DNA of 64,000 nucleotides from contig JALLLT010000046.1 of NCBI GenBank assembly GCA_025266875.1, forward strand, positions 265,283-329,282. The letters are read 5' to 3'. The stretch is from Fennellomyces sp. T-0311 (lineage: Eukaryota; Mucoromycota; Mucoromycetes; Mucorales; Lichtheimiaceae). Both the position numbers and the translations under genes were made by a program. Shown here one piece after another: positions 42,889-64,000 of this stretch. Within the stretch, counting starts at the first letter, position 1, and every line of letters starts with the position of its first letter. The notes below the pieces were generated by a model. The model was given only the letters and a program-made list of their open reading frames with translations. It had not been told where the DNA came from and did not search any database.

Positions 42889-45800
42889 TTATTTGCCAGT
42901 ACGACGCCAGCCATCCTCGTCAGGAGCGGAAGCACCACCAGCTTGACGGTGGCGAGGGCGCCATGGTTGCGTAGCAGGCTGTTCATCACGCGACTCACGG
43001 GCAGGGGGACCACGTCGTTGAGTTGACCATGCACCATCACCACGGCTACCCATACGGTCACCATCGCGACCAAAACTACGGTCATTATCGCGACCAAAAT
43101 TGCGTTCACCTCTACGGCCAAAGTCGCCACCACTACCGGCACCGCCACGACGATCACGCATACCGCCGAATGATGAAGTACCAACAGGTCGGCCAGTGCG
43201 CCAGTTGTCCTCAGCAGGTGCAGCATTCGCAGCAGCAGCAGGAGTAGCACCAGCCTGTTGTCTACGCAAAGCGGGGGGTACGTAGGCACTGCCAGTAGCA
43301 CGGGCAGGAGGTGCTGCAGCAGAAGCTCGCTTGGCCATCTTTTCTTCAATTTCGCGTTCGCGTTGTTGCTGCTTGCGCAGTTGTTCTTCTTGTTTTCTAT
43401 ATCAAAGGATTAATTATCACTTTCAATTTTGTTGTTCGCTTAAAGAAACGTACTTGTTGTATTCTTCGCGCTCTGCCTTCTCTCTGGCAAGTCGAGCAGC
43501 CTTTTCAGCAGCTTCACGCTCTTCGGCTTCTCTGCGTTGTCGCTCTTCCTCTTCGGCGCGCTTACGCTCAGCTTCTTCGGCTTCACGCTTCCGGATGAGC
43601 TCTTCACGCTTAGCACGCCATGCGGCAATGCGCTCTTGCTTCTCCTGTTCAATGGCCTCATCAACAGCACGGCGCTGAGCTTCCAAGATATTTTCTAACT
43701 TGGTCTCTTGCTTCTTCTTGTATGTGGTAAAGTCATCCATCATACGCGATAGACGAGCCTTGATCTTCATGTTCTCTTCATGCTGTGTCTTGGATGACTG
43801 GAGTTCGGCCTTGCGAGCAGCTTCATAGAAGCTCTTGTCAGCCTTTTGTTGACGTTCGTAATCCTTCTCCAGGAGAGGAATCTCTTCCTTTCGGTATGCA
43901 CGTTCGGTGTGATCCAAGCGCTTGCCGATCTGCTTGAGACGGTCGCTCAGTTCGCGCTGTTCGGTCTGGAGACGTGTGACCTTCAAGTCCAACAACGTCT
44001 TGACATCAGAGTTTTCAATCTCTTCAGGCTTGAGTTGCAAACCAGTCTTGGCTGTGATTTCTTCGGCGATACGCTTGGCTTGATCGCGTTGAATTTCTTC
44101 CTGAACACGCTTCTTGCGTTCCTCCTCACGACGACGCTGCTCTTCTTCCAGACGCTTCTTCTCAGCCTCGGCCTTCTTGGCGGCAGCAGCGGCCTTTTCT
44201 TGAGCCGCAAGCTTCTCCTTGCGAGACAATTCAGTCTCAATGATTTCCTTGCGACGTTCAATCAAGGTCTTGCGCTCGAGGGTAGCCTTGTGCTCCTTCT
44301 CGATACCCTTGATGGCACGTTGAAGAGCCTCCTTCTTGGATTCTGCGGCGTTAGCCTTGACAGCAGGATCGATCATCTGAACAACAGCATGGAGACTGTT
44401 ACCAAGACGAGACAGCTGAGTGCGCATGAGGTCAGCTGGCGATGACTGAAGTTGGATACCCTCTGTGACGGTGTCTTTGGGAGGGGCAAACAGGTCAGTC
44501 TCGAACATCAAGCTCTGGGAAGAGTGATCGATACGGATGTTGAGTTCACCACGCTTGCAGCCGTTCATGATGAACTTTTCAATGGTGGCAGCGTCGTAGT
44601 TGTATGGTGCGGGGAAAGAGGCAAGCTTAAGAACAAAGTCCAGCTTGACGGTGGTGTAGACCTGGGACAGCTGCTGCAACAAACGGGTGAGGATGACTTG
44701 ATGGAGCGGGCGGACATATTTGGCCATATCAGCGTCTTCGGAAAGCTTGGTCATGATGGGGTTGATCTTTTTGCAGATGGAGAGAGGGTGGAACTGCACT
44801 TCAAGAATGTTGTACAGGTCACGGATCTCAGGTCGGACACGCGACAAGATGTTCTTGTTGAGAGCTTCCTTCAATAAACCAGTGCGAGTGGGGTGTTGGT
44901 ACAGGCCCATCAGCATCGACAAACGGTTGAGTTTCTGGATGCGGTGCTCATCAGCTTCGACGTAGCCGGGGCGGGTCTTGGTCGTGGTGATGATAGGGAT
45001 GGCGAGTGCAGAGAGCAAGACAATTGAAGCCATGCGCGACTGTTCCTCATCGGTCAAGTTCTTGTTGATGATACGTTCGATAGTGGAGTAGCTGTTCCAA
45101 GCGGCGGAATGGAAAAGATAATCCTCGCTGACCATAAAGATCTTGGTGAGTTTTTCATAATAGTTAGCCATCATGACAGGCTTAGGAGGACGCTTGGAGG
45201 TTGTCAGCAGAGTGTGAATATCCTCAACCGACTTGAAGGCTTCCTGCCACAATTCGAGTTCGGCAGCGGCGTTGAGCTGGGTGAAGCGGGCATCAAGGTA
45301 TTGTTGCAGCGTTTCGGGATCGTTCAAGTTGATCGAATGAGGCTGGTGCGAGTACTTTGACATGTTTTGGAAGTGATTGCGCAAAATCTCGCACAAGCGA
45401 CGGAACTCGGTCTTACGTGCGTAAGTCAAGCAGAACGAGAATGCCTTGTTGGTAACCGAATGATACAACGTTTCGAGACGAGCATTGTTGCGAAGCATAT
45501 CGAGAACCGTACGATACGCCTCCCACAAAAACTTGAGCCAGGGCGTGACGACCGCGCGATCAGTACGGTCTTTGGTCTGTTCGCCGCTGACGGTGCTGAG
45601 CATGATAGATTCAGGTGTTTCCGAGGCTTCGAGATCATCAATATATTCGACGGCAATCTGATCTGCCTTGGCGCGTGCTTCAGCAACCTTTTGTTCCGAG
45701 AGCTCGAGAAGTTTGTTGATAATAGTCTAGAGCATTTTTTTGTTGAGTTAATTGTTCTTTCTTTCTTGAACGTCATTACGTGCTAACCTCGATGCTGTGG

Positions 45801-46109: not shown

Positions 46110-46578
46110 TGTCGGCTTGGTTAGAGGGTACGATGGTGGAGGCACCAGAGGGGGCGACTTGGGGACCACCGTCAAACTCCGCAGTCGCCTTTGATCATCG
46201 TTCATGCATGTTTCGCCACTATGATGCAGCAGCAACTTCTGGTTCAGTACTTTGCTCCATGGCAGTGGTATCCATGACAATCAATAGATATTTCATCAAT
46301 ACTCTACAGTAATCTCTGTAACTTCTTATGCGATGCGCAATCTAACTTTTTGTGTTACGTATCTTGTTTAAATATCGATCCCATAAGCATCAGTTGCAGG
46401 CATTAATTTACAATTTTCGTATTTTACGACAATGGGATTCATATTAAAGTGTTATACCAATACCCATCGAAAAATCAGACGTTCTATACTACTTTAAATC
46501 CACCGTCACGGGGGAGGCAAAAAGCACCTAGCGCTGGTGTTCCTTCAATCGCTCCATGGAGGCAGCGAGTTGGAAGGT
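46110..46578. other. Spacer between eIF3a promoter and Fanzor stop codon
   Basis: Only 469 bp separate the eIF3a start from the stop of the upstream, same-strand Fanzor gene, so it must hold the eIF3a promoter and any Fanzor 3' end and guide-RNA region. A near-palindrome around AGCGCT with CACC/GGTG arms lies at 46525-46539. Confidence 0.5.
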
Positions 46579-49500
46579 TTAGTCGTGGGAGCGGGAGAAG
46601 GGTGGGATGGGTAAATTATTGTGAGATACAGCTTTCGAAAGGCCACTGACAGCGATGTTGAATGCTGCTGCTGCATCACGGTTGAAAGTATTCGCATGGT
46701 GGAGAGGACAGTCCGGATTCGTGCACCTGATGGCACCGTTAGCTGCCTTGAGCTTTCCATCTACTCGGTACTTCTGCAGTTTTGTCGGTGCATGGCATTC
46801 AGGGCATGTCTTAGATGAGCGATATTCGTTGGTGACGATGACGGTATCTTGCTTGCATGACTCGAGAGCCTGTCTCAGTTTTGCGTTCGCGCCTCTAGCA
46901 TGCTTCTTGATGCGACTGTTGACTGCACGATATGCGCCATAGAAAGCCAGTGTTGCTATCGATTGCTGAACGCGCCAAGATGTTGCAAGCTTTCGATGCA
47001 GGATAAAGTGACGGATGTCCCTCGTCCTTGACTCTTTATTCCTCCTGTTGCCGTCGTCCTTTTCCTTGTCGCGTTCGCGTCGATTTGTATGCTTTGCTTC
47101 GAATGTCGCAGCCTTTTTTATTGACGATGTATATTTTTTCGCTTTGAATGGACGTGTTGTCTGTTGCGGCGGTTGCTGCTCAGGTGGTGGTGGTGTGGTG
47201 TACCTTCGCACAACGCTCATCACGGCGTCAACGGTGGTGGTAACCGCGGTTGCCACGACAACTATCCCTGGATCGATTCCAATGACACCCAGCGGTTTCT
47301 GGCTGTTGAAGCTGTCAATGATCGTCTTTTGGATACGTTTCTATAAACACAGTGATAAGCATACATATAACGCGCCTTTGATCCAAGCGCTCTACCTGTT
47401 CTATTGTTTCTTGAGGACGAACTGTTTGGTTCGATTTTAACGCTTGCATTCGAAACAGCTCGGCACGCAAATCCGCCAGCTTCCTTTGCTTCAATGAGAT
47501 GTCTTTTTCAAATTCCTGGACAGTTCTTCGCACCGCCCATAGCTTCGCGTAAACACCACGATCCCAATACTTCTTCCCCATGTTCTTTTTCCCGTCCCGG
47601 AATGTACGACCTAGGTCTGCACGCTCGATCTCCTACTTATTGCACCTCTTGCGTACCGATGTGAGCTCGGCCTGTAGCTCCTTGACCTGTTTTTCCTTCT
47701 CCTCCAGAAGCTGTTGGTTGAGATTTTGGTCGATGTTAGCCCTTTTCGACCCAGATTCCGCTGCTGAAGGGTGCGGCCTTTTCTGCCCGGCTGCCTTGAT
47801 CGCCTTCTTCTTTTTTCGCTTTCGAGCCTTCCTGGTCTTTCCTTTGCCAGCCATTCCCTTACCAGCCTTGTTCTTTGCTGTGCAGGACGTCACCACAGCC
47901 CTACCCTTCCCTTTGCGAACAGGAAGCACTTCCTCCGCACTGGAATCAGAGGAGCTAGATTCTTCATTTTGATCGGCAGACAGGACCCTGCTTGCTTCTT
48001 TCTTTGCTTGGCTGGTATCGTTCGGGTCAGCGGTCTTGCGGCCACGACCAAGCACCCGGACCTGATACTTGTTAACATAGGCCAAACGGTGCTTGAAGAC
48101 AAGGTTCTTGGTTTTGAGAGCTTGTGTTATCTTCGGTAAGCGGAAAAAGGCACCGAAAACATCATCGCGCCTCTCTGGCAGGCCCGCCTCTCGTTTGCTG
48201 GTGACTTTCCCCTTGGCGCTGGTAGATGGGATCGTGTAAGTACCGGAGAATAATGTGTAAAGCACATCTGCTCCAATATGGATGGAGTGGTCTTTGTAGT
48301 CGACGTCTGGGACGATCGCCCAGATATTCTGTTGTGGGATCACCAATTTAACGACAGCGTTTGTGATATAAGCCAGAGGGACGCATTTATGCACTGACAG
48401 AACATCCGCTTCGTCGTCATCGTCGTCTTCCACGCTATCGTCTTGATCTGGTTCTGGGTGGTAGTATGGTCGAACTGCGTTGGCGATTTCGGCAGCAGCC
48501 TGGCACTGCTTATCTGTTAGGTCGCTCCCCTTGTAGGCTGCATCGCGAATTGCTCTGGCAGACACCTGCTTGGAGGTGGTGGACAGGACTCGTTTGATAA
48601 TGGCTACCAGTGCTCGAACTTGACAGGTGGTAACTTCTTTTTCTTGGGCATCTACGGCAGACTCTTCCACTTCTTCCTCGTCGGCGTCGTTGGTCTTCGT
48701 ACTAATCGGATTGTCCTTGTCAAGCTTCTTGGGAAGAGTGCGATCCTGTTTGTGCTTTTCTTCTTTCTCGACCTCCTCTTTGCTACTAAGAGCTTTTGAT
48801 GAACGGGACAGCTTGTCAAGCTTTTAGAATAACTCTGTTAGTGCGAAAAGTAAGCACACAAAAATTCTGTCGATTTACCTTCACGGCCCAGTTGTTTAGC
48901 TTTTCGAATAACATTTCGATCACAGTATCATCTCTTCCGCGAATAATCGAATTCTCAAGCTCTTTCCGGTGGTAATCTGCCTTACTCTTAGCATGTACTA
49001 TGCTAATACGCCGATCCACGGGATTGCCGGTTTCTGTCTCCTCCTTTTTTCTCTTCTCAGCTGCAATCCGTGCGAGATAACGACGGACGCGATCTGGAGC
49101 GAGCCTCAGCCAAATGAGAGCAGTTATTAGGACTCGGAGATCTCTGTCGTGGCGCTTCCGCGACCAGAGGTTGTGTGCAGCTGTCTTGAACTCCCGTAGA
49201 GCATTGTTCATGGCACCGTTGAAGGCAAAGTCATCCTGCTTGGTGACAACACCAGTATCCACGATCGCCTTGCGCGATTCATGAAAAACAAATGATTCCA
49301 TCTTTTCGTTCACGCTTGAACCGACGCACCCTAAGCATAAAACATAACACGTTAATTGATGGAAACAGAAAGTGTACACTGCGATGACGTACCTGACAGT
49401 ATGTTCGAGAAATGTTCAAACTGATACACGCGGGCATCTTCCAACTTGTCCAGATTTGGCGGTATCGGTGACACATGGACAGCCGTTTTCGCCTCTGGTC

Positions 49501-50530
49501 CGAAATCAAAACCAGGTACCAGAGCTTGGATATCGAAAATTGTGTCGTCGACAACAGTACCGCACAGTCGGGCCATTCTTCCGCTGGCGATCATATCAGT
49601 CAAAGCGGATACCCCGTTCGAAAGCTGTGCCATACACCGACCGACGCGCAATTTCTCGTTCTCCAATCGGTTCAAGAACCCGTCGTAGGCGATTTCCTCT
49701 CGTAAAATAGACCGCAATGAAAACGTCATAGTTTCTGTAAAAGTTGCTGTTTCGCGCATTGAAGTGTCTTTGTTCTTGACCACTTGGCTATCTTCGCCGT
49801 CGGTTTCTTGGTCATCACTGTTATTGGCTTCTTGATCGCTGTTCTGATCACCCATGACTTCGTCCCAGGTACATGAGTCCAAGAAACCCTGTACTTCCTC
49901 ATGCAGCCGATACCCTTCACTTTTGAAGTATTGAAATCGGTCGTAATCTTTATAACTTTTTATCCGGTCAGCGAACCAGATAGGAGCCACGTCCATGGGA
50001 TGCCGTTTTAGTATGGATGCTTGGATCTCGTCATAGATGCGAGGAACGTTTTTTCTTTTGTCGTGCTTGTTGTGCAGCTTTTCTAGCATCTTGACAGCTT
50101 TTTGCTTGCTTTCCGCTCCTTTAAATGCCTCTTCAATCTCTTGACGATGGAACCGCCTGACCCCGGCCTCAAACTCGCTGATGATCTGGTCTCGGGTAAT
50201 ACCTGTCCGAGGCATTGTCACCTCTTCGTTGTCCACGTTATCCTCGCCATGGCCTGTAATCGTGGCTACAGTAGACGATGGTGGCGCGGTTCGCAAGAAA
50301 ATGGCATGATCAGAGTCACCGGAAAGCAACCGTGTCAATGACGTGGATTGGAGAATATCCATGCCGCTTCTTTTAAGGGCCTTGGTTGTTTTGCGCAGGT
50401 TCTCGGCACCGGGAACAAAGTTATGCAGGTCGCTGAAGGCGTTCTCGAGCCGGTTGGCTGAGATGGGTGGTGCTTCGATCTGTACCTCTTCCGAATGACC
50501 AAAGATCTTCTGTACAAGCGTAGGATTCAT
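46579..50530 (-). CDS. Fanzor (eukaryotic TnpB-like RNA-guided nuclease) with long N-terminal region; in-frame TAG or tiny intron
   Basis: Exons 50530-49393, 49330-48879, 48820-47687, 47632-47396 and 47340-46579 give 1240 aa with every phase closing. The last exon holds the Fanzor signature: RuvC-I Asp in 'VIGIDPGIVVVATAV', then about 150 residues on 'NEYRSSKTCPEC', then 'RCTNPDC' (four-Cys zinc ribbon) and 'FNRDAAAAFNIA' (RuvC-III Asp). This fits the published D-x(125-275)-[TS][TS]xx-C4-RD pattern for Fanzor. The N-terminal ~850 residues include acidic stretches, 'FKHRLAYVNKYQVRVLGRGR' and a Lys/Arg-rich NLS-like run ('KARKRKKKKAIK'). Between exons 3 and 4 the frame is continuous but holds one TAG (47633-47635). 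A 54-nt intron (47686-47633, CAG|GTCAAG...AAGTAG|) would remove it; otherwise translation stops at 925 aa before the nuclease. Family knowledge: Fanzors use a guide RNA from near their 3' end and ride on transposons. Confidence 0.8.
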
Positions 50531-51250
50531 AGTTGGAAAGAATGTGGTACAGCATGAAACGCGAAACGCGAAAAAAGAGAGTCGATGGAAGCACGCAATT
50601 GGGCGTGTATTTTATTTGGTACTTCCTTATTAAGTTAGGCTAACGTTGACATCCAAGCATTGTTACTTTCATTTGTAGTATCTATCATAATGGTCAACCC
50701 TATTGGCCATCGCTATTGTTTCAGTATGCGAAAGAGGCACACGCTTCATGTATGGTATGCACGGATCAACTGTTTCTGCACACGAAATGCTATCGGCAAC
50801 CAATGATATGCATAGACGGCGCAACCCAACAGCTTCCGTTTAAGTAGAATATCTCGCAGTAAAAAGCGTGACAGACGCCCAGCCAGCCGTATCGATCAAT
50901 CCCTAAAGGCTGTTTCAAACGCCGTTAGAACGCCTAAAAAGGGACTGAAAAAGTTTGTCATACCTCGCTCAAATCAGAAGTTGGCCTGCACACTTCAAAG
51001 CCTTATCTCTACGACATGCTGATTTTTTTCTAGTCATAACTTGGCCCCAAGGAATGCTTGATTTATAGAATTAAAAACTCAATAACTCTCGTGGCTTGGA
51101 GTACAACATCTAGCAGCTTAAAGAGCTCTTGGTCAATTTTTATTTGAAGTCGTTTAAAGGTAACAAAATATAAAAAATACAGGCGTTCAGCTAACTAAAC
51201 TCTTTTTTCTCCAGCTTCAAGCTGGTTGGGACAGCGAACGACAATACGAG
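50531..51250. other. Spacer between the two Fanzor copies
   Basis: Upstream of the intact Fanzor frame and downstream of the broken copy. A perfect 7-bp stem inverted repeat (CCAGCTT-C-AAGCTGG) lies at about 51212-51226, some 25 bp beyond the broken copy's stop. No ORF recognised. Confidence 0.5.
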
Positions 51251-51778
51251 CTACACCGAAGGGATTTCCATGTTGGGATTGATTTGATATGGGTCTTGTG
51301 GATTTCTGCTTAACACGGGCAGCAGTGTGTTGTCCTTCGAAATAGCGATGGACAGCCCTCTAAATGCGATGTTAAAGGCCGCAGCGTCATCTCTTCCATA
51401 GGTATTGTTTCGATGGCAAAGGCAACGGACGTTCGTACATCTCAGTGCGCCATTTACTGTCTTCAGTTCGCCTTCTCGACACTACTTATGCAGCTTCGCA
51501 TCCTTGAAGTATTCGGGTAACTCTGCGGTCAAGATGATGCTGCCATCATCTGAAAACTCCAAGCTACTGATTGCCCCTTTGTAATATTTAACGTGCTCGT
51601 CTTCTTCCTTTTTCAGCTCATCGAAAGCAGCAACTGCATCGCTCTGTTGCAGCTCGATCGAATCATCTTGTTCGTTCAGATGCATGGGGGAACGGGATCC
51701 GTCGTTCATGTTGATATCCATCAGATATCGCTGAATGGTCACAAGGATCTGATGATTTCTAATCAGATGGCGCTTCAA
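51251..51778 (-). pseudogene. Second, broken Fanzor copy (C-terminal zinc-ribbon / RuvC-III end)
   Basis: Downstream of an ORF ending 'DAKLHK' at a TAG (about 51482), the same frame continues 'CREGELKTVNGALRCTNVRC', then 'GRDDAAAFNIAFRGLSIAIS', ending at a TAG at 51251. This lines up residue by residue with the intact copy ('VDGKLKAANGAIRCTNPDC', 'NRDAAAAFNIAVSGLSKAVS'). The first CxxC pair of the zinc ribbon is lost ('ELPEYFKDAKLHK' in its place), and the copy is clearly diverged, not a recent duplicate. No RuvC-I motif is found nearby. Dead as a nuclease. Confidence 0.75.
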
Positions 51779-51840
51779 AATGCAAATAGCATATCATTAT
51801 ATCTAAACTACGAGTCAGCTGCTCATCTTCAGCGATAATG

Positions 51841-52235
51841 TCAGTAGGATTCAACGGAAATACGACTCTACACGCTTCAAAGTGAAAGTATGTGCCTTCG
51901 ACTTTTCTGGTGTCTTGTACTTACAACATGTTGCCATGCCACAGGGCAGTGAGCGGTGTAAATTCCTCGATTAGTGTGGGGTACACAAGCTTTTTGCATA
52001 GCGCGTTTAATGACATGACACGCAAACGCCGATTCTTCTCCAATGTCTCCTGCACAACATTCTTGGATGCCTGTGGCGGCTTATCCTGGCCCATGAAAAT
52101 ATCATGCTTGCTTGTGCCCACACACCGGAGGGGAAAGTCAAGTTGGAGTTGTTTTGGCGTATTGGGGGACACCAGCAAAAAGATCTCTATATTCTTTGAC
52201 TGTCGTCGAGCTAGATTCCGATCTTTTCTCAGCAA
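51841..52235 (-). pseudogene. Unassigned decayed ORF
   Basis: Minus-strand frame with protein-like blocks 'RRQSKNIEIFLLVS', 'FPLRCVGTSKHDIFMGQDKP' and 'ALCKKLVYPTLIEEFTPLTAL', with a further frame near 51841-51900 ('FHFEACRVVFPLNPTD'). Lies between the broken Fanzor and a transposase fragment in the same orientation, so it probably belongs to the same mobile-element debris. No family recognised. Confidence 0.35.
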
Positions 52236-52495
52236 GCTAGGATCAGTAACTGGAAAAACAAAAAGGAAACGAATACTTCTTGATGTCGTATTCTTTCAGG
52301 AAGAGAAACATATTATCGGACATAGCCGCATAGAAGTGCAGCCGCTATCAGTCCTCATTGTTGTCGTTTGTCAGCTTACCCCTAGTCCACATTAAAGTGC
52401 TTCTCCGTCCAGTTAATATACTGTTAGGCTTGGAAATCGTTTTACTTACGCGTGGTGAACCGCCGTCCTAATATACTCCAAACCGGTGGGTATAT

Positions 52496-52900
52496 TTGTT
52501 TTTTGGAAAAAAAACTGCTTTTAGTGCGCCTAGTTCTTCCAGATCTCGGCAGTTTCATATCCTCCCCAGCCACATGGCCTCGTTTTTCATAATCGCGTAT
52601 TGGAGCTTTAACGCCTTCAAGGTTTTGTTTGCGATTTTTGCTTTTCGTTCCGATATTTTCAGCGTTTCTAAGTCCACTTCGTTTGGCTTGCCGTTGTTTA
52701 GAAACGTGAGCAACTATTCACGATGGGACATTGACAAAAGCTCTCGCGCCTAGTTGATAAACACCGCAAGATCGTTGTCATTGCTATCCGTTGGAGATTC
52801 AGGACTATCAAGTACACTTGTTCCTTGCGGAATATCGTCGCCATCAGTGCCATCAATGTCGTCAAGGTTGCTGCGGATAGGGGCCCTGGCACCATCGAGA
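52496..52900 (-). pseudogene. Unassigned remnant sharing a motif with 54227-54620
   Basis: Minus strand reads 'KTLKALKLQYAIMKNEAMWLGR' across a stop into 'NCRDLEELGALKAVFF', and higher up 'SNLDDIDGTDGDDIPQGTSV'. The first motif recurs near 54500 ('RDLQKLVALKQVFL') and the second near 55290 ('GNLDDTGILIPN'), so copies of one element seem to be scattered here. Confidence 0.4.
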
Positions 52901-53214
52901 CGCCTTGTCTATACATGACCGTTACTCTCACGAGATGGACCTTCTGTACAGACAGCCGCGGTGGTTGATGACGGGGAGCTAGGCTGTCTGCCGTTACTGT
53001 CACCCGACTGCTTTGACTTTTTTTTTTGCGTTGTCTAATTCCCATATAAACACATCAATTGCTTTCATTTCACCGAATATACTCGTTTCAGAGACACTTG
53101 CCTTTTGGCCTTATCCCGAAGCGCCCAGTCCAAACAACAGGATCATTACCTTGAAACGTAAATGGCTTGAGTATGGGAGCCGCGCGGTGTTGATGCCGCT
53201 GCTGACTGGTACGT

Positions 53215-53799
53215 CTAACCAAAGATGTCGATAGTTCGAAACTTTTCAACTGTTCGCTTCACAAAACGGCGCATGAGAAGACCCTGGTTCTTGTCGAAAA
53301 TCTCGTTCGTATGGTAGCTGCCTTGGAAGAACTGAAGTAGCAGCTGGTAGTGACCTCCATTCAAACGTACTTCAACGCCCTCAGCCATGGAAGCAAAGGT
53401 AGCTGGCGGCATTGGTTCCGATCCGGTGACGTTGATTCCAAGACTTGGATTGACAGGAAAGTCGAGGAATCTCTCGTAATCAAAGGTGCTTGCATGCTGA
53501 CGCTCGGGTTGACGGAAGGATTGACCAGCGATCCGTAGCAATATCCTGAATTCTTCGATGTGATTCTGAAAGCGGTCAGTCCAGCTTTGCACAAGGTCCA
53601 TGACCCGAGTTTTCTCAATGAACCGCTTCATGAAGGTCACCACAGAACAATCCTTCTGATTAGTCGCAGCATCCTTCAAGTAGCCGGTGTATCTCTCGAA
53701 TTTAAAGACCCAGGAACTGTAGACGGACCCGCGTCTTGCAAGTGGTCGCATAAGCGGAGATGGAGGTGCATAGTTTGGCGTCACTGATAAAATCATCAT
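53215..53799 (-). pseudogene. Transposase fragment, DUF4218-like (CACTA/Tnp2-type)
   Basis: The 194-aa frame contains 'VYSSWVFKFERYTGYLKD', then 'FMKRFIEKTRVMDLVQSW', matching the F-G-P-V-Y..W.F.FER.NG.LK core of the DUF4218 domain found at the C-terminus of Tnp2-type CACTA-like transposases in plants and fungi. The catalytic region is missing: upstream sequence is out of frame, and no start or splice set rebuilds a full enzyme. Its tail ('RFLDFPVNPSLGINVTG', 'GGHYQLLLQFFQGSYH') is also family-like. Interpreted as a dead fragment. Confidence 0.65.
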
Positions 53800-54226
53800 T
53801 GTGCTTATCAGTCGTACCGTTCTCTATTAGATAAACGTCTTTATACTCTCTTCATCCTACTGTCCAAGTATACATTCTCAGGATCATTACCACGACTTTC
53901 AAAATGATTCACGGTAGTTTGTTGATCCATATTACCGTAGTTATGAAAGGTTTGCTTCACTGTAACGTTCTGACGACCTCGAGTTTTGGAATCGACCTTC
54001 TCAATAGTCGTGTTACCAGCCATCATTTCTTGATCGTTCTTGAACTGATGCTATAAAGCATTAATTACTAAGCAATGTTATTTGGAAAATGGAATCAGTG
54101 AGATCCTCGTACTGAGATAGATTTCCACTTTGAGATCCGGGCCCTAGCCTTGATGCTGCATGCTCCAGTGTCATTTGTCAAAAGTAACAGATCTCTTTTA
54201 ATTTCGCGCAATCGCTCATCCCTGCT
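53800..54226. other. Remnant DNA, no gene seen
   Basis: A short minus-strand frame at 53841-54026 ('NVTVKQTFHNYGNMDQQTTV') is protein-like but unassigned. Confidence 0.35.
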
Positions 54227-54620
54227 TCAATTTGGGAAGCAAGCGAGATATGATGTATAAGCATCGGCAGGGGACCAGTCAGTGGCTGTTTTGCGAAAGT
54301 AATTCATGTGAGGGTCTGTGCGATCAAGAAACGAAAACGCGGAAACAACATGTGCGACCGTCGCGCAAGTTGCATCATATATAATACGAGGCGCTGGAAA
54401 GGGAGAACGAAGGTGTTGACATGAAGCGTAGCGAAGGGGCCCAACCCCAGATGTGCGTAATGGACTAAGGCTCGTCATGTGTAATGCTAAAAAAACCTGT
54501 TTTAGTGCAACCAGCTTTTGTAAATCTCGATAGCTCCTGTTCTGCCTAGCCACTTGGCCTCCCATTTTATGATCGTGGCATCCAAACGTGAGTGTGCTTA
54601 GAACTTTGCTTGTGAATCTT
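54227..54620 (-). repeat. Dispersed copy of the 52.5-kb motif
   Basis: Minus strand around 54480-54590 encodes 'KWEAKWLGR' and 'RDLQKLVALKQVFLAL' in different frames, parallel to 'KNEAMWLGR' and 'RDLEELGALKAVFF' near 52510-52580. Same order and strand, diverged: two decayed copies of the same sequence. Confidence 0.45.
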
Positions 54621-55172
54621 CCCGTTCCAATGACGTAAGATATCTCTTTCAGCTTGTTGTTGTTTAAATGGAAGTGTCACGTTGTGTTGTATATTTCGTC
54701 CGGCCTCAGCAACTCTGTGACAAGACCTTTCTAACAGGTTCCTTTTTTTTTTATCCGATTGATATATGCTAAATATTACTATTTCATTCAGCTGTTCATG
54801 CTAATCATAATTAGCATGGTGTTTCCCTCTTGTGTCTCTGCTCCATGAAAGCCTTCTCATAGACCATTCTCTAGCCCAATTTCCCTTTTATTTACCATTA
54901 TATCATATCTGCGTCGAGCCTTCTATCTGATCCGAGCCGTGTCTCCATTCATTAGTTGATTATTACCAGTATAAATAGTCGGTCCTCAAAAGACAATAAA
55001 GAAGCTCCTTTTTCGAACTTTCAAGTACATTTTTTACATCCTATCTGTCAGAAACCATATCAAAAGGCAACAGATAAGCCAAAAGAAGTCAATATCTACT
55101 TGAACATTACATGTGACAGGAGTAACAGTTCGCGTGTCCCACCGATCGAAACCCTTATGCCAAATGATAAAT
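54621..55172. other. AT-rich stretch, no gene seen
   Basis: Nothing supported. Confidence 0.4.
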
Positions 55173-55940
55173 TCAACGAGACCGATGTCGCTGCCATTCG
55201 ATGGAGGTTTGGAAGGATTGTTTAGCCTGGCAGCCCACTTGTTCCTTGCGAAATATCATCGTTCTTTCATTGCGCTCTAGCCTGTTCGGGATAAGGATAC
55301 CGGTATCATCGAGATTGCCTGCTTCTGCATTATTTATGATACCTGGGTTATTCGTTGTCGGCGAACAGGAAGAGCTGTAGCACCCATCAGTACTGTCACT
55401 TAACCCTTTGGACGCGGATGCGAGGGTTGCAGGTAAGAGTGAAGGAAAAAAAAGTAAAAAAGGAAAGAGGCTGTGGAACCGGTTAAGCAGTTCGCGATTT
55501 GGCGAATGTAGGTGGTGAATGCACCTCAGGATAGTACGTGCTAGGACCATGGGACCAGGAACCATTCCGTTCTTGCTTCCAAATGGGTACATGGTCTGGA
55601 GTAAATAGTCTGTTAGTTTTTTAAGCCGTGGCCGTATGGATTGCTGGAATTCATTGTTTGTTAAATGTACAAGTGCTACATCAATGCGGTGAAGGGAAAG
55701 TAAATACTGGAAAGCAAAAGGCACAGTCCCATCTATAGTACAATAAGCGACTGGATATTATGTAAAGAGGCATTGCTCAAATGGAATAATATTGACGATG
55801 TGTTGATCCAAACACTCGGACAATAGCAGGATGAATTTATGAGCTGTAGGTGACAGTCGACGGCCCAATGTGATGCTGAAATAAAACGCATCTTCTAACA
55901 ATACGGATGACCATGGTACATAGCCAGAGTGTAACTCCAA
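55173..55940 (-). pseudogene. Unassigned decayed ORF pair
   Basis: Two minus-strand frames: 55940-55758 ('GYVPWSSVLLEDAFYFSITL', 'HKFILLLSECLDQHIV') and 55724-55173 ('LLSLHRIDVALVHLTNNEF', 'RPRLKKLTDYLLQTMYPFGS'). They read as one helical protein broken by a stop. The downstream part repeats the 'NLDDTGI' motif seen at 52.8 kb. No family recognised. Confidence 0.35.
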
Positions 55941-57156
55941 GCGGTCGGTTAAATTAGTTGGAACAAAGGTCCAGCATAAGTAACTCCAAGACTATATCAG
56001 AGTCATATGACTCCATGTTCGATTGCAAACCGAATTTATCAGTGGCATTGAGAAAGTTCTTGTTCAGGGATAGATCCTTCAGCTGTGGGTGCGACATACA
56101 TTGAAAACCAATAAGGCTGCTGTGTCGATTGTACCGAAAAATGTCGTGGGGTAATAACGGATGATGAACGTAGAAAATGAGGGTGAAGTGGGAATACCTA
56201 ATGTAACAGCAATGTAGTATGCGGAACGTACGTAGCTAGGCTTTTCTGTATGTCATTCGCCGATGCAAAATATACTAGGTTGTTATGAAGCTCATCTAGC
56301 CTCTACGACCGCAACTGTGCAAAAATATGTTTATTCAACTTGACTTCTACGCTTATAGAGAGGTAACAAGGTTTACTTTTAACTTAGTAATGTAGCATAG
56401 AAGCACTGCCTTCTTTACATTATCCAGGCTGGATTACGAACTTTGAATACAATCCAATATTGAATGCTTCTTCAGTCCATCATAAACTCAGCTTGTTGCA
56501 TTTCACATTCCAATTTTTTCTGCCTTGGACAACAGCCACTCGGATCCCGTAAAAATCGCTCCCCGTAGCCCTTTGCTTGTATATGCTGGCTTCCATTTTC
56601 TCCATCGGGAATAATCGTGTCACTGTACCGGAAGCATCATCGCCAGCAGAGCATCCGGTGGAAGATTGTATGCACAAACAAAGCAAATTTGGAAAGAAGT
56701 GGAACGTTTCCGTTACAATTAGTATGAGTTAAAGAGGGAGGGTGGTTCCCCAAGGCACTAGCCTCTGGTTTTCGATTTTTTCAAATCTTCCCGATTTCGT
56801 ACTCGTCTCGCTGATAGTCTTGCCGTATTTTGACCGTTCCAAATAATACATCTTTCACTTACATATAGATGCTGCCTCGATAAAGCCTTTCGGCATATGT
56901 TACCTTTAGTTGCTTCAAAATTGAACTTCTCACCCGGTTCAATGCCAAAGGTATCAATGACAAGCCATTTTTTTCCTGGCACGTTAGCAACTTTATATAG
57001 CATTTTATTTATACTTATTCACAATCCGGTTATTCGATCTAAGCATTGGTTTGTGTGTAAACACTCACTCGACTTCGCCATTTGGAAGCCTAGGCCGTTT
57101 GCAAAACTGGTGTTGGTGATCAAAAGACAAACTCAAAGGACGCTGTTGTCAAATAA
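55941..57156. other. Gene-poor stretch
   Basis: A minus-strand frame at 56758-57003 contains 'KVANVPGKKWLVIDTFGIEP', protein-like but unassigned. Nothing else supported. Confidence 0.35.
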
Positions 57157-57540
57157 CATCCAGAAGAGTCGAGATTAAGCAAAGCTACCAAACCTACGGT
57201 AACCGAGAATGACAGTGTTGTCGGCCATCCAGTACAGATACAAGACACCATAATCATATCCGTCGCTGGAATGGTAGAAGCCACAAATGCCGAGATTAGC
57301 AGCTTTCGGATAAGTCAGTCTATTTTAAATAATGTGGCAACGCTGAATACAGCTGCTTCACCGGAGGATGTGTACATTCGAGCCTTTAAGGACATGTTTC
57401 GCCTGATCGTATAGTCAAGCTCCCGATGCGTCGCGGTCTCATGGTACAGTTTTGTCGTCAGCTCTGTAAAACCATATTTGCGATTGACGAAGGTGACAAG
57501 GCCGCAGTAAGATTGCTTAAATGGTATAAAGGGTAACCCT
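57157..57540 (+). pseudogene. Unassigned coding remnant with one frameshift
   Basis: An 86-codon open stretch (57157-57417) with coding-like composition: 'TVTENDSVVGHPVQIQD', 'NAEISSFRISQSILNNVATL', 'ASPEDVYIRAFKDMF'. After a frame change near 57405 it continues 'IVKLPMRRGLMVQFCRQLCK' and 'AIDEGDKAAVRLLKWYKG' to a stop near 57537. It has no start codon of its own, so it is either an internal exon set or a remnant. Family unknown. Confidence 0.4.
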
Positions 57541-59055
57541 TGTTCAAATGCAGACTTTGTAAAGGGTAATGAGGAGCAACATCGCTATTGTTGTATCTTC
57601 ACTTGTATGGAATAATATCTGCATCCGTACACGGAAGAAGAAGAGCCATGACTTCTGCATATCCGAGCAACAAATAAGAATGGTATTAGCGAAACAGAAG
57701 CGTATCGATTACCATATTTACTGACAGAAACAGGAGCTCTCAACATCGGAGAAATGTTAATAAGTAAAAGTAAGGAAGTTGCTTCATGATTACGGCAAGT
57801 TGACAAACAATTAATAAGTTTTTGGAGTTACAATTGCTAGTGTCGAGCTTAGGCAGCCTCTTTATCAGCTATTCTAACTTTCGAGTTCAATTTTATAGAT
57901 GAATAGGGTACATCAATGCAGATGGTGATACCACTGGACGCATGTAATAAGTTATGTCGAATAACATACTAATGAAGGCAATAAAGGCAAATACGTAGCA
58001 AGGAAAGACTAGATCATACAGTACAGTATAATATTATTTATTGATAATTTACTACAGAAGAGCCTTGAAACGATAGTGCTTTTTGTTCGTAATATAAACT
58101 TATGTATCATTAGCGAGAACCAATTCATAGTATAAGCAAAACAGACTGTAAAACTCTTATTAACGTATTATCATCAGTAGTAGATCAGCAGCGTTAAAAG
58201 AATGAAATTATTATCGTTGCTACTGAAACGTAACTGTATTTTTGCTAACTTCCGTTGTTTGTTTGTTTTACTATTCGTATCACCTGCCTCTCCCTTTGCA
58301 TATTCCTTTGTTACTTATATTTCTGCTTCCCTCGTTTTATGTTTTCTTTGCCTCTTCTACTTTCGTTTTGTTTTTACGTATTGCTCGTTGCGTGCGTACT
58401 TATTGGTATATTCCGTTCGTTTATCTTTTTCAACCATATCGAACATAACTAACTTTGTTCGCACTTGAATGACTTAGTTTTATTACTTGATTTCCCAGCT
58501 TTTCTCTCTTTGAGACCTTTTGTCTTAACCGCCATCTTCATTGTATTTGGTTAGTATTTTTACTTTCGCCATGTAACTCATAAATATTCATATTGTCCGC
58601 TAGGCGGTTTCTTTTGGGAATAAAGAAAAGTTACGTTACACTACCATAGCCCTTACCTTTATAAAATACTCAAATAAGTATTTATCCTTTGCTACTATGC
58701 ATTAAAGTCGTTAGAACTATAAAGTCAATATACTTCTAAACTGGATACACACATCAAAGCATAGCAACTGTGCTGTTACGCTGTCACACTCACTTGCTAT
58801 GTTCAGCAGCAGTATTCAAAGGTACTGTCATACATTTCGCTCATTCGCTCATATGTACCAATCACTTTCTTTGCCAACTGCGGAGTGCCCCCCAGACATG
58901 TCATACCCAGACAATTTTAACCCTTGACCTTTTCAAAAAAACAACTTCCTCAAGGACCAACAAATTTGCAGGCATGTGAAAAGACACGGACACCAGAATC
59001 CAGCCATAACTCATGAAAAAAAAAACGCGTCGCCTTTTATATTGTGAATGCAGAA
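57541..59055. other. AT-rich intergenic stretch, no gene seen
   Basis: Hydrophobic short ORFs at 58202-58468 come from T-rich DNA in three overlapping frames and are not gene-like. Confidence 0.5.
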
Positions 59056-59737
59056 ATGAACTCGTTGCTTCGTGTTTCGCCCCGTTTAATCGCCAGACCT
59101 GCAATTCAACGTGCAGCGTACACGACCGAGGCCCCAGTAAAGAAGGCTGGTGCGGTCCGTGGCGGGTAAAATGGCAGCCATCGTAAGATCCAAAGACATA
59201 CATTAGTAACCTTTTTTTTTATTAAATCTAGTTTTGTTGGATTCCTTTTGGGCGTCACTGTTGCTGGCAGCGTTGGCTATTACTACCTTTTGGAAGAATA
59301 TAACAATGCATCAGGCTCCTTGTTGAGTTCCGTCGAGGAACTTCAGTCGTCGACCGAAAAGGTACGGTTTTATAGTTGAGAAAGGGAACGGATGATCTGA
59401 TATGTGTGATAGGTCCGCGAATATGCTCGCAAAATTGAAGCAGTTGACAAGGATGTCGCCAAATTGAAGGAATTGGCAGCTACCACTAAGGAGATGAACG
59501 AGCTGAAGGCTGAATTCCGAAAGCTCTATGTATGTCTTCATTTTTTTTTCAGGGACAATATGTTCAATGGGCTTACATCATTCTAGGATACTCTTAACAT
59601 GGAGCATCTTGAGCTGAAAACCCATGTATGGGGACTAGGTATGTGTACCACGGGTTGTATTGAGAGTATTCTTTTTCTGATGAAAGCGAATAGAGCAAGA
59701 TTTGAACAAGGCTGTGCCATCACCAAAGCAGCAATAA
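59056..59737 (+). CDS. Small mitochondrial membrane protein, conserved in fungi, unknown function
   Basis: Five exons (59056-59165, 59232-59361, 59413-59529, 59587-59638, 59694-59737) give 150 aa with exact phase. The N-terminus is a mitochondrial presequence ('MNSLLRVSPRLIARPAIQRA'). A Gly-rich TM helix follows at about 38-53 ('FVGFLLGVTVAGSVGYYYL'), then a coiled coil ('SSVEELQSSTEKVREYARKI', 'KLKELAATTKEMNELKAEF') and a conserved end 'LNMEHLELKTHVWGLEQD'. The layout matches a fungal family of single-TM mitochondrial proteins with no assigned role; the coiled coil probably faces the intermembrane space or matrix (not decidable here). Confidence 0.8.
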
Positions 59738-59951
59738 AACATCCAGATCTGTTAGAGTACACATACACACATCTTTTTTTGTCAAGAAAATATCCTGCTT
59801 TTGAGGCCAAAGCGCGCCCTTTTGACACACTTTTGCGAACGCAAACACGTCTATAACTTTGAGGGAGCCACAGCAACGTCGTTGCAAAGCGACAATAGAA
59901 TTTGTAACAGTGGTGTACCCCGCCACTGCTTGGGTGTCGCGACAACAAAAA

Positions 59952-61390
59952 ATGTTTGTTCGACTTGGACACCATTCCAAACGATGGGTACGCAATTATG
60001 CACAACTCCAACCACGACTTGACTATAAGAAAATTGCCGAGAATCCCAAGGCTGTTCAAGAAAACATGCTCAGACGCAATCATTGTCCAGTCGATGCTCA
60101 ACATGTCAAAGCCTTATACGATCAACGACGCGTCAATTACAATGCCCTTTCCGAACTACGGGCGCAGCGCAACACACTTTCAAAAAAGCCAGAGGCGAGC
60201 CGACACTCATTCAGCAAGCCAAACAACTCAAACAGCAAATCCAGCAGCTTGAAGCATCGCTGCAATCGATCGAGTCTGAACTTTTGACGTCTGCGGTCCA
60301 GATTCCGAACGATACCCATCCGGACGTACCTACGGGACCTGAATCCAACGCACGCGTGATCAAAACCGTGGGCGAACTGCGTCAAGATGGCAAGGATCAT
60401 GTGGAATTACTCAACAAACTCGGATGGATCGATCTCGAACAAGCCGCTATTGTGAGCGGATCAAGTTTTTACTATCTCGAAGGGTACGGCGCGTTCTTGG
60501 AAATGGCATTGGTGCAATATGCCATGGACAAGGCGGCATCGAGAGGGTTTTTGGGTGTGATTACGCCGGATATCGTAAGAACACCCATTGCTTACGGTTG
60601 CGGATTCCAACCGAGGGCAGGCGAGAGTTCGCAGATATACCATGTCCATGCAAATGAAAATGATGAGCTGTGTTTGGCGGGAACGGCTGAGATTCCTTTG
60701 GCAGGAAAGTTTGCAGCCAAGGTGCTGGATGAGTCGGAATTGCCCAAACGACTGGTTGGATTCGGCCGAGCGTATCGTGCTGAAGCTGGCGGTCGAGGAA
60801 CCGAGACAAAGGGACTCTACCGCGTGCACCAGTTCTCCAAAGTGGAACTGTTTGCAGTGTCGACGGCAATGCAAAGTGATGCAGTGTTGGAGGAGTTTAG
60901 ACAGATCCAGGAGGAAATGTTTTCGGAGCTGGGCTTATCGTTTCGGTAAGCTGTTTCAGTACACATTGGATCGCGCGCTAAACGTGTTGCTGTTTAGAGT
61001 GTTGGACATGCCCACGGAAGAATTGGGCGCAAGTGCTTACCGCAAGTACGACATTGAGGCATGGATGCCCGGACGAAAGACATGGGGAGAAGTGAGTGTG
61101 ACATTTTTGTCGCGATATGTATGCAAATGACATGTACTCATCAAGCAAAGATATCATCAACGTCCAATTGCACCGATTATCAGGCACGGCGGCTGTCGAT
61201 CCGGTATCGGCCCACATACCACGCTGGCAAGAACACACTGTTCTGTCACACCATCAACGGCACTGCCATTGCCGTACCAAGAGTCATCATTGCCATCTTG
61301 GAAACGTTCCAAAAGCCGGATGGATCCGTAGAAATCCCAAACGTGCTTCGAAAATGGCTACCGGGTCAACCAAGCGTGATATCACCTTGA
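59952..61390 (+). CDS. DIA4: Mitochondrial seryl-tRNA synthetase, with a one-base frameshift
   Basis: Charges mitochondrial tRNA-Ser. Exons 59952-60945, 60998-61091 and 61151-61390 total 1328 nt, one short of a multiple of three. The frame changes at the A6 run at 60182-60187: upstream reads '...[10 protein letters not shown]', downstream '..[16 protein letters not shown]'. Adding one base gives about 442 aa. N-terminal presequence '[18 protein letters not shown]'; N-terminal coiled-coil arm to about residue 110. Class II motifs: motif 2 '[14 protein letters not shown]' with '[16 protein letters not shown]', and motif 3 '[16 protein letters not shown]'. The serine-binding '[10 protein letters not shown]' is present. 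All conserved parts after the shift are intact, so the break is more likely an assembly error than a null allele. Confidence 0.88.
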
Positions 61391-61464
61391 ACCCGCCAAC
61401 ATGTAGAGCAGCCATTATACATAAAAAAGCAGGATGCAAAAAAAAAGAGAGCGTGTATTTTGAG

Positions 61465-63050
61465 TTACTGGTAAAAATCTTCGTCCTTTACAGCATTGTC
61501 ATCTTCCTTGTATATCTTGATTGTCTTGTCTGCTTCGCCGGTAATCAAACGTAAACCTGTCCGATCGAATGTGCTGGCAAAGATACCAGCTTCAGCATCG
61601 AGCGAGCCCGGTTGTACTGTCGTCTCCATGGACTGGAACTGATATCCTGATCGCCAATCGTGGAAGCCCATTGAGCCGTTGTCACCTAGAGCACGCGCAC
61701 TTTAGCCACTCCTCCAATTACTCCACGGTTATACATACCACCCGAAAAGATGACGCCGTCAGGATTGATAGACAGCGTGTTGATGATGGACTTGCGACCC
61801 TCGTAGTTTTGGATGAATGTACCTTCGGGACACTTCCAGCCCTTGATATTATCGGCGCTTCCACTGGCGAAACCGAATTCCGTTGGATGGATCGCGAGTG
61901 CTCGCACGCTCTTTTTGTGATGTGTCAGGACACCCATGGTCTTTCCTGCGGCCAAATCCCATAATCGGATGGTGCTATCCATTGAGCCGGTGATGACTTG
62001 TGGATCTGCTTCCTGGCATTTGACATCGGAAACTGTGCTGGTGTGGCCCGTCAAGACATGTACGTTCTGCTTTGTCCGCATGTCCCACACTCTTGCGGTT
62101 GCATCGCGACCACTGGTTACCAGGACATCCAGGGTAGGATGCAGACTCAAGGAATAGACGCCGGAAAGATGGCCATGGTATTGCCGAATGACCTTGTTCT
62201 GCTCCAGATCCCAGCACTTGACCATTTTATCCTCACCGCATGAAAACAGATACGGGTGTCGCGGTGAGACAGCCAATCCACGTACTGTGCTGATGTGACC
62301 CGTTAACGACAGCTTGAGCGTGCCTGATGCCAGATCCCAAATCTTGATGGTACGATCGCCTGCGCCCGTCGCAAACCATTTGTTGCCCGGCTCGACAGTG
62401 ACAGCGCGCACCCATCCCAAATGTCCACTGATAACCCGCATAAGTTTCCATGGCGCGTGCCATACTGGACGAATCGTTTTGGCTCGTGCACGACGTACAA
62501 GGGACCCTCCTCCACCAGGCGCGTCGCCGAAGATCTCGGATACTTGGTCTTTGGATCGTAACGCGACAATGCCCTGTTTCGCCTTTTCATCGCTAAAGAA
62601 TCATGGATTTAGTTTTCTTTACACAATGAAAAAGCTCCTCGATTGATTGATTGATTGATTTTTACTCTGTTGATTTCTTTGGAATGGTTTCGATAAGTTG
62701 CTGTACGGCGCTGTCGTCTGGTACTTCTTCAATCGTGGTTTTGGTCTTTTTGGCTTTCTGTGCTTCTTTTTGCTGCTTCACCAAGGCTTCGGGCAGCGTG
62801 CGTACATCGCCGTACTCGTCTTGGATTTTGCTGGTCAATTTGATGCGTTGGCTGTGCAATGTGTGTGTGTTATTGATTTGAATGGGCCGTCCACGGATCA
62901 ATAATACCTGCTCATCTCATCCATGGCAGGCTGGCCATAGGTGTTTGCGAACAACAGACGGGTCCGCTTGGCGGACTCGGCCACGATCGACTGGATGGGC
63001 TGCTCCTTTTCCAGTGGCAAGTCTTCGGCTTGTCTTTTTGCAGCAACCAT
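61465..63050 (-). CDS. PRP46: Pre-mRNA splicing factor Prp46 / PLRG1 (WD40)
   Basis: A core protein of the Prp19 (NTC) complex of the spliceosome. Four exons (63050-62908, 62851-62666, 62592-61739, 61685-61465) give 467 aa with exact phase. N-terminal helix: '[20 protein letters not shown]' then '[18 protein letters not shown]'. The linker is shorter than in human PLRG1. '[18 protein letters not shown]' opens a seven-blade WD40 propeller with clear repeats ('[13 protein letters not shown]', '[12 protein letters not shown]', '[11 protein letters not shown]', '[15 protein letters not shown]', '[13 protein letters not shown]', '[13 protein letters not shown]'). The C-terminus is shorter than in animals. 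Intron 2 contains the GATT tandem repeat. Confidence 0.96.
62642..62660. repeat. (GATT)n tandem repeat
   Basis: About five GATT units inside intron 2 of PRP46, next to its donor site. Confidence 0.85.
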
Positions 63051-63242
63051 GACGAAAAGGCAAAAGCTCTTTTGGCGGAATGTCAATTCACATTTTGAAG
63101 GGTATTTCAAATAAGTTATTAAGGCAGACAACGCACAAAATAGCGGTCAAAAGGTAAGAACTGTACTAGGAATCAAGGGTAAAGAGAAAGAGGCTTCCTA
63201 CTGATACAAACGGAAAAGTATGGGGGAGAATGAGAGAGGTGA

Positions 63243-63713
63243 TTAAAGAATAACGCAGCAAGAGTCCTTGTCGGGGCTGCTTGATTTCTGTTGTCTAACT
63301 TTTCTATCGCGAATCTGGCGCATGAGGATGGTGTACACCTGCTCCACATTCTGGCGCGTCTTGGCCGACGTCTCGATGTAGGGGCAATTCCCACTCGCTG
63401 GCCAACGCCGACGCCTCGCTGTTCTCGACCTTTCGCAGATGCGCCAAGTCGACTTTGTTGCCAACCAGAATAAACGGTACCTAAGGGGAATGGGGAGAGG
63501 AGGGCGGGAGGTGGGGGTAGACCTGTGTTGGTGCGTGGTTCTTCCTTCCTCCTTATATACCGCAACTTACCGTCTCATCGTCCAGCACACGCAGGATTTG
63601 GTCACGAAAATTCCTGGGTAGCGACTATGTTATAACGGGATTCGCCTGATCTTGTAGTAGTTTATCGCGGAATCTGCCAGAAACCATGTACAATTGAGTA
63701 AAATGAACGCAGG

Positions 63714-63757
<44 letters not shown>

Positions 63758-64000
63758 TACTGCTGCATATTCTTCCTGTCCAGCTGTGTCGAGGATATCA
63801 ATCTGGCACTCTTGGTTATCGAGTACAACCTTCTTGCGATATGCTGCGGTTCATCATCATCAGCCATCGAGCAACATTCTACATTAAAACGCAATGCTTA
63901 CAATCGGCTTTGGTCGGATCGTACTCCTCTACGAAATCACCGTACATGTACTGCAAGGTCAATGCGGATTTGCCGACACCACCGGAGCCGACCATGATGA
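63243..64000 (-). CDS. Ral-like small GTPase, partial, with clustered indels
   Basis: Exons 64000-63902 (runs off the edge), 63843-63761, 63673-63571 and 63480-63243. G1 'GSGGVGKSA' and the effector/G2 region '[15 protein letters not shown]' match the Ral signature exactly, unlike Ras or Rap ('PTIEDSY'). G3 is '[13 protein letters not shown]', G4 'LVGNKVDL' and G5 'ETSAK'. The end CVIL is a CAAX box favouring geranylgeranylation. In exon 3 four homopolymers each carry one extra base ('CC' at 63668-63669, 'AAA' and 'AA' in 63640-63665, 'TTTT' at 63607-63610), and about 9-10 codons of the RSGEGF.. strand are missing. Exon 4 has one extra G (63390-63392). Removing all five bases restores phase across every exon junction. 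Ral normally activates exocyst-dependent secretion. Confidence 0.78.
63719..63752. repeat. (CA)n microsatellite
   Basis: About 17 CA units inside intron 2 of the Ral-like gene, on its minus strand (GT)n directly after the donor site. Confidence 0.95.

Follow-up and report, generated by a model that had tools for sequence, protein, structure and literature searches.

The window, a stretch of 64,000 nucleotides, comes from the genome of the soil fungus Fennellomyces sp. T-0311 (Lichtheimiaceae, Mucorales). A mobile element of about 4.5 kb lies on its minus strand and carries a gene of the Fanzor lineage; the stretch singled out in the initial annotation makes up nearly all of this element. The features of the window copy and its immediate surroundings are as follows.

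46470..50935, minus strand: Fanzor-carrying mobile element, window copy (about 4.5 kb), with ends common to copies at unrelated loci
50935 and 46470, minus strand: element termini, 5' AGGCGTTCTA at 50935 and 3' GTCTGATTTTT at 46470
50862..50943, minus strand: 5' terminus and preceding CCCTTTTT, common to a second Fanzor family and to Helitron loci C120 and C172
49393..50530, minus strand: exon 1, start ATG at 50530, lacking a 305-bp segment
50279..50287, minus strand: junction of the 305-bp internal deletion, with a 9-bp overlap, the same in L010, L011 and C100
49331..49392, minus strand: intron of 62 nt, GT-AG
48879..49330, minus strand: exon 2, N-terminal extension
48821..48878, minus strand: intron of 58 nt, GT-AG
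47396..48820, minus strand: exon 3, with acidic stretches, a REC/WED-like block, FKHRLAYVNKYQVRVLG, a Lys/Arg-rich run and a coiled coil
47341..47395, minus strand: intron of 55 nt, GT-AG
46579..47340, minus strand: last exon, encoding RuvC and a C4 zinc ribbon (TNB), with DPG, alternative Glu, C4 and RD
46470..46579, minus strand: conserved 3' terminal stretch, a candidate omega-RNA scaffold
51173..51497, minus strand: piece from the 3' end of a member of the related second Fanzor family, in a neighbouring flank that is suspect

The initial annotation read this locus as five exons closing in phase to give about 1240 residues. The motifs that it described are there: the last exon (46579–47340) encodes GIDPG, SSKTCPEC, CTNPDC and FNRDAAAAFN, and exon 3 has the acidic stretches as well as the Lys/Arg run and FKHRLAYVNKYQVRVLG. 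The gene model itself does not hold for the window copy, which has four exons and a premature in-frame TAG in exon 3 (47633–47635, codon 926), so that the open reading stops at 925 residues and the nuclease is missing. A working 1240-residue gene in the window is ruled out by this stop and by exons that do not close; the window copy is a decayed gene and not a working one. Its final stop (46579–46581) falls 17 codons earlier than in the intact copies, and the 305-bp deletion in exon 1 costs a net 82 codons and one 58-nt intron. The deleted segment is absent from four of 17 aligned copies (the window copy, L010, L011 and C100) and whole or nearly whole in the other 13. We treat the difference as a deletion because a portion of the lost segment is conserved in a Circinella relative and in the second Fanzor family, and as one that has spread because the four copies having it are at different loci. 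A second internal deletion, of 374 columns and with loss of intron 3, is seen in the C100 and C103 copies (L024, L025, L027 and L038), and its junction has a 9-bp overlap, as at the 305-bp deletion.

Searching the genome of the window at the DNA level gave at least 59 matching pieces. The 17 long copies that were aligned include the window copy, to which the other 16 are 93–98% identical; the remaining pieces are shorter or more diverged. Most copies begin and end at identical bases, at unrelated loci. Three copies (L015, L017 and L018) are open across five exons and encode 1357 residues with the full signature; their four introns are 58, 62, 58 and 55 nt long, none a multiple of three. The annotated count of five exons thus fits the intact copies, and the claim that the protein is about twice the Fanzor1 sizes given in the literature stands, with its length corrected from 1240 to 1357 residues. 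The other 14 copies are disrupted, L012 and L014 by one internal stop each and the rest by frame shifts, deletions or other interruptions. Pairwise dN/dS values among the three intact copies are 0.29, 0.31 and 0.35. By region they are 0.41 (residues 1–150), 0.36 (151–345), 0.19 (346–560), 0.68 (561–680), 0.29 (680–870), 0.29 (871–1100) and 0.29 (nuclease part); the extension is therefore constrained much like the nuclease, except for residues 561–680, where there is little constraint. When the broken copies are counted too, dN/dS for the 17 is 0.42 overall and 0.30–0.65 by region. Asp1110, Glu1259, the four cysteines and Asp1309 are conserved in all 17.

The published Fanzor/TnpB motif, D-X(125,275)-[TS][TS]-X-X-C4-X(5,50)-RD as given in PMC3627910, is present in five of the seven sequences searched: L015, L017, L018, Circinella umbellata P0001 and the last exon of the window. 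It is absent from Zychaea mexicana P0002, in which the finger is degraded, and from Zychaea P0003, which ends before RuvC. When the L015 protein was shuffled 20000 times, the motif never appeared. The last exon matches Pfam PF07282, scoring 26.6 bits (over the cut-off) in one search and 25.5 bits, slightly below the cut-off of 26.3, in another. DPG together with an alternative RuvC-II glutamate is described as a feature of the Fanzor/TnpB lineage (PMC10711439). When the PDB was searched with a profile of four relatives, SpuFz1 was the top match (E = 0.0024), over only 61 columns but spanning the alternative glutamate; the other 21 matches had E values from 0.23 to 10 and were mainly coiled coils. 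A search with a single relative gave SpuFz1 as the sole match (E = 0.24). A TDG motif in the WED domain is a Fanzor1 feature according to PMC10711439, and in the six searched sequences that include the WED-like block none was found near it; a stray TDG occurs at 325 in L017. Judged by sequence, then, the giant family is Fanzor1-like and of the DPG/alternative-Glu lineage, a label that we use because of the motif, the residues and the SpuFz1 match, set against the missing TDG and a lysine at the alternative-Glu position in Circinella P0001. The annotation of an oversized gene of the Fanzor lineage is accordingly supported by the motif, the catalytic residues, PF07282 and SpuFz1. The nuclease part alone was a poor query, matching none of 1413 candidates and missing even the known relatives, and a search of a viral collection found no canonical Fanzor.

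Apart from this change from glutamate to lysine at a catalytic position, Circinella P0001 is well kept, and it is possibly an inactive or re-used Fanzor. The missing glutamate, along with the 14 disrupted copies, could be taken to mean that the family as a whole is defunct or has lost its catalytic activity, and that the protein, if it acts, is a DNA-binding remnant. We think this unlikely, given that the three open copies are under constraint and that every aligned copy keeps all of the catalytic residues.

Relatives outside the genome are few. Of 7991 candidates that were scored with the 1357-residue protein as the query, two matched. One was Circinella umbellata P0001, a single gene model of 1415 residues (39% identity over 97% coverage) for which no Pfam domain had been precomputed; the other was Zychaea mexicana P0002 (840 residues). 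An alignment search gave 15 matches, 12 of them partial models from Fennellomyces sp. T-0311 itself; partial models from Zychaea (P0003) and Phascolomyces (P0016) were also obtained. In public databases the giant proteins are listed only as hypothetical protein, and Circinella P0001 is unannotated. Literature searches for Fanzor alone, or with Helitron, Mucor, fungi, Lichtheimia or Circinella, gave no report of the giant family among the matches listed.

The partial models raise the question of whether there is one protein here or two. The Fennellomyces models are short (P0004–P0007 have 419 residues), and four of the six that we examined among the 12 (P0004, P0005, P0009 and P0012) enter intron 2 and then stop; the Zychaea models are only partial and lie on two different contigs. 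These observations would suit N-terminal exons that form a gene of their own, for about 420 residues, with a shorter Fanzor gene after it and the two never fused in one protein. However, the other two models examined (P0008 and P0014) and two from other genera (P0003 and P0016) cross intron 2 at the same junction as the five-exon model, P0004 omits a block that is conserved in Circinella, and the Circinella protein is modelled as one piece of 1415 residues. In addition, the reading frame stays open through five exons in three copies even though every intron length would shift it. Two separate genes therefore seem improbable to us. The N-terminal part very likely belongs to the protein, because it is conserved in the Circinella model and is mostly under purifying selection in the intact copies; this bears out the long unrecognized N-terminal part of the initial annotation.

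In the 1357-residue protein the RuvC-I aspartate is residue 1110, with 1109 residues ahead of it; in SpuFz1 it is residue 383, with 382 residues ahead (PMC11423790). Searches of Pfam, NCBIfam and PHROGs with the residues ahead of RuvC-I gave nothing convincing; one family member matched phrog_1009 (function unknown) with an E value of 0.0021. Structure prediction, also proposed in the annotation, was carried out on P0002 and P0003, one of the two models being built from a single sequence without an alignment. Fanzor1 is characterized by a REC/WED fold and kinked REC2 helices. The models obtained have pLDDT values of 46 and 53, and a fold search with them found nothing at an E value of 0.001 or below; fold searching is uninformative here because the models are too weak. 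The block FKHRLTYVNKYQVRVLG is modelled as a β-hairpin in Zychaea P0003 (residues 666–686; pLDDT of about 39–53), which from its place may be the last WED hairpin. The roughly 240 residues between FKHRLTYVNKYQVRVLG and RuvC-I are Lys-rich and then form a long helix, seen as residues 446–544 of the P0002 model (pLDDT mostly 71–81). The approximately 1100 residues before RuvC-I would most likely make up a larger-than-usual RNA/DNA-binding (REC/WED) lobe, in which a putative Lys-rich, coiled-coil insert lies ahead of RuvC-I. As for the added activity that had been suggested for this part, the family and fold searches identified none.

The ends of the element point to its carrier. A query with the 5' end (last 401 bp) gave 34 matches, comprising 20 to its own family, ten to the second Fanzor family and four others, one of which (C150:787507) stops short of the terminus. 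Two of these four are located 2–3 kb upstream of Helitron_like_N on the same strand, an arrangement with a chance expectation of ∼3 × 10⁻⁵, computed without split rows and some of the weak ones, on 35 of 44 Helitron_like_N rows. The element at C120 has Helitron_like_N, a PIF1 helicase and an endonuclease domain, and its 5' match is 75% over 89 bp only; the Helitron match at C172 is interrupted by stops. The first 33 nt of the C120 element form a hairpin (z = −3.9), as described for the 5' end of Helitron2 (PMC3627910), and the 5' hairpin of the giant Fanzor family itself is weaker (z = −1.5). In a search of the genome the 3' end was seen only in Fanzor copies and not in Helitrons. By eye, the 3' inverted repeat lies 2 nt from the terminal T run, and the hairpin that a Helitron2 would be expected to have after it is missing; the 3' hairpin predicted for the C120 Helitron is weak (z = −0.64).

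The insertions lie after T runs. CTTTTT directly precedes 14 of the 16 recognized 5' ends (23 rows were examined, seven of which have no recognized 5' end, and the window copy and L010 share one flank), and in ten of these the sequence is CCTTTTT. TTTTT continues after 16 of 18 recognized 3' ends. No target duplication beyond the T run was seen by eye in full-length insertions. Among six 5'-truncated copies a duplication is clear in one, L013, with CCCTTTTT-GAGATATAA ahead and GAGATATAA behind, and the 5' T run there is therefore host sequence; none is convincing in L022, L029 or L011, and L030 and L033 have no recognized 3' end. By its ends, the element appears to be a non-autonomous transposon of the Helitron2 type. 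A Crypton, an IS607 element or a DDE transposon with a 5-bp duplication (TTTTT at both ends) was also considered as the carrier and was dropped because the 5' end matched RepHel loci. The sharing of the 5' end with RepHel loci also bears on whether an outside Helitron is needed at all. Since the long protein is the sole recognized gene in the element and its large N-terminal part has no identified family, it could itself be the transposase or recombinase, with the Fanzor domain as only one part; yet no transposase or recombinase family was found in Pfam, and NCBIfam and PHROGs name nothing. Together with the common 5' end, this makes an element moved by its own protein highly improbable in our estimation.

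From 50944 to 64000, where the contig ends, the right flank of the window has almost the same sequence as C114; the left flanks of the two loci have no relation to each other. The Fanzor elements of the window and C114 differ by ∼2% and the flanks beside them by only 0–2 bases per ∼250, and for this reason we rejected 5' read-through capture as the cause; the C114-like flank is likely to be an assembly misjoin at a repeat or a segmental duplication that breaks at the 5' end of the element. On the other side, a long minus-strand frame (43423–45726, 767 residues), which we take to resemble eIF3 subunit A, adjoins the element. The second Fanzor family has at least three long copies (C137, C108 and C123), matching over 5.3–5.9 kb; C137 is built on the same long plan, and its N-terminal part is frame-shifted. 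Among the 40 of 57 candidates that were scored, at least 24 loci of this family fuse the 5' part (to ∼1687) with the last 350 bp at nearly the same junction. These internally deleted loci resemble the 'ghost' elements described for SpuFz1 (PMC10432273).

We consider it probable that the locus holds a decayed, non-autonomous Helitron2-type transposon whose sole recognized gene encodes a giant Fanzor1-like protein (1357 residues when intact), and that it would work as follows. RepHel would mobilize the element in trans. The protein would bind RNA made from the 3' end of the element, with flanking host DNA serving as the guide, and would cut the matching empty site beside a CTTTTT-type TAM; repair of the cut site by copying from the filled copy would then favour retention of the element. 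The TAM is a prediction drawn from the position of the element after CTTTTT. The predicted fold of the candidate 3' RNA is weak and not clearly more stable than those of shuffles (z = −1.8 for 110 nt and −0.13 for 171 nt), and an Rfam search was unproductive. A further-reaching proposal, of which we are rather doubtful, is that a distinct Mucorales clade of giant Fanzors has evolved a recognition lobe of Cas12 scale or an extra domain, possibly docking the nuclease to RepHel, so that a single signal (CTTTTT) would be both insertion site and cleavage motif.

As a probable Helitron2-type passenger with a Fanzor1-like nuclease, the element has known counterparts. Like the Fanzor1 proteins SpuFz1, GtFz1 and PpFz1, the last of which is also from Mucorales (PMC11423790), the giant family has DPG in RuvC-I, an alternative RuvC-II glutamate next to the C4 zinc finger, and RD. 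It is unlike them in its length of 1357–1415 residues, where Fanzor1 sizes are given as mostly 600–700 residues (PMC11423790) and up to about 800 (PMC10711439), in the longer run before the RuvC-I aspartate and in having no WED TDG. The closest parallel in the carrier is with CRe-1, -2 and -3 of Chlamydomonas, described as Fanzor1 in non-autonomous Helitron2 elements (PMC3627910): both have a multi-exon Fanzor1, a 5' end common to a RepHel Helitron, insertion after T runs and a 5'-truncated copy with a target duplication. The CRe elements are from another host, and their 3' end is also common to Helitrons and has a hairpin, whereas the giant Fanzor element has an inverted repeat at its very 3' end and no hairpin after it. 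MCi, ROr and PBl of Mucor, Rhizopus and Phycomyces are likewise multi-copy Fanzor1 elements in Mucoromycota; PMC3627910 describes them as MuDR-like elements that make 9-bp duplications, or leaves them unclassified, with duplications of 6 or 11–12 bp, which sets them apart. The Fanzor1 kind is thus known, and what appears from the sequences to be new is an oversized and conserved Fanzor1-like clade carried by a Helitron-like element.

A form of 1357–1415 residues that is conserved and under selection would widen the Fanzor1 size range given in these sources (about 600–800) and would suggest how eukaryotes enlarge Fanzor nucleases. It also offers a native test of whether the TAM of a Fanzor copies the target of its carrier transposon, here CTTTTT.
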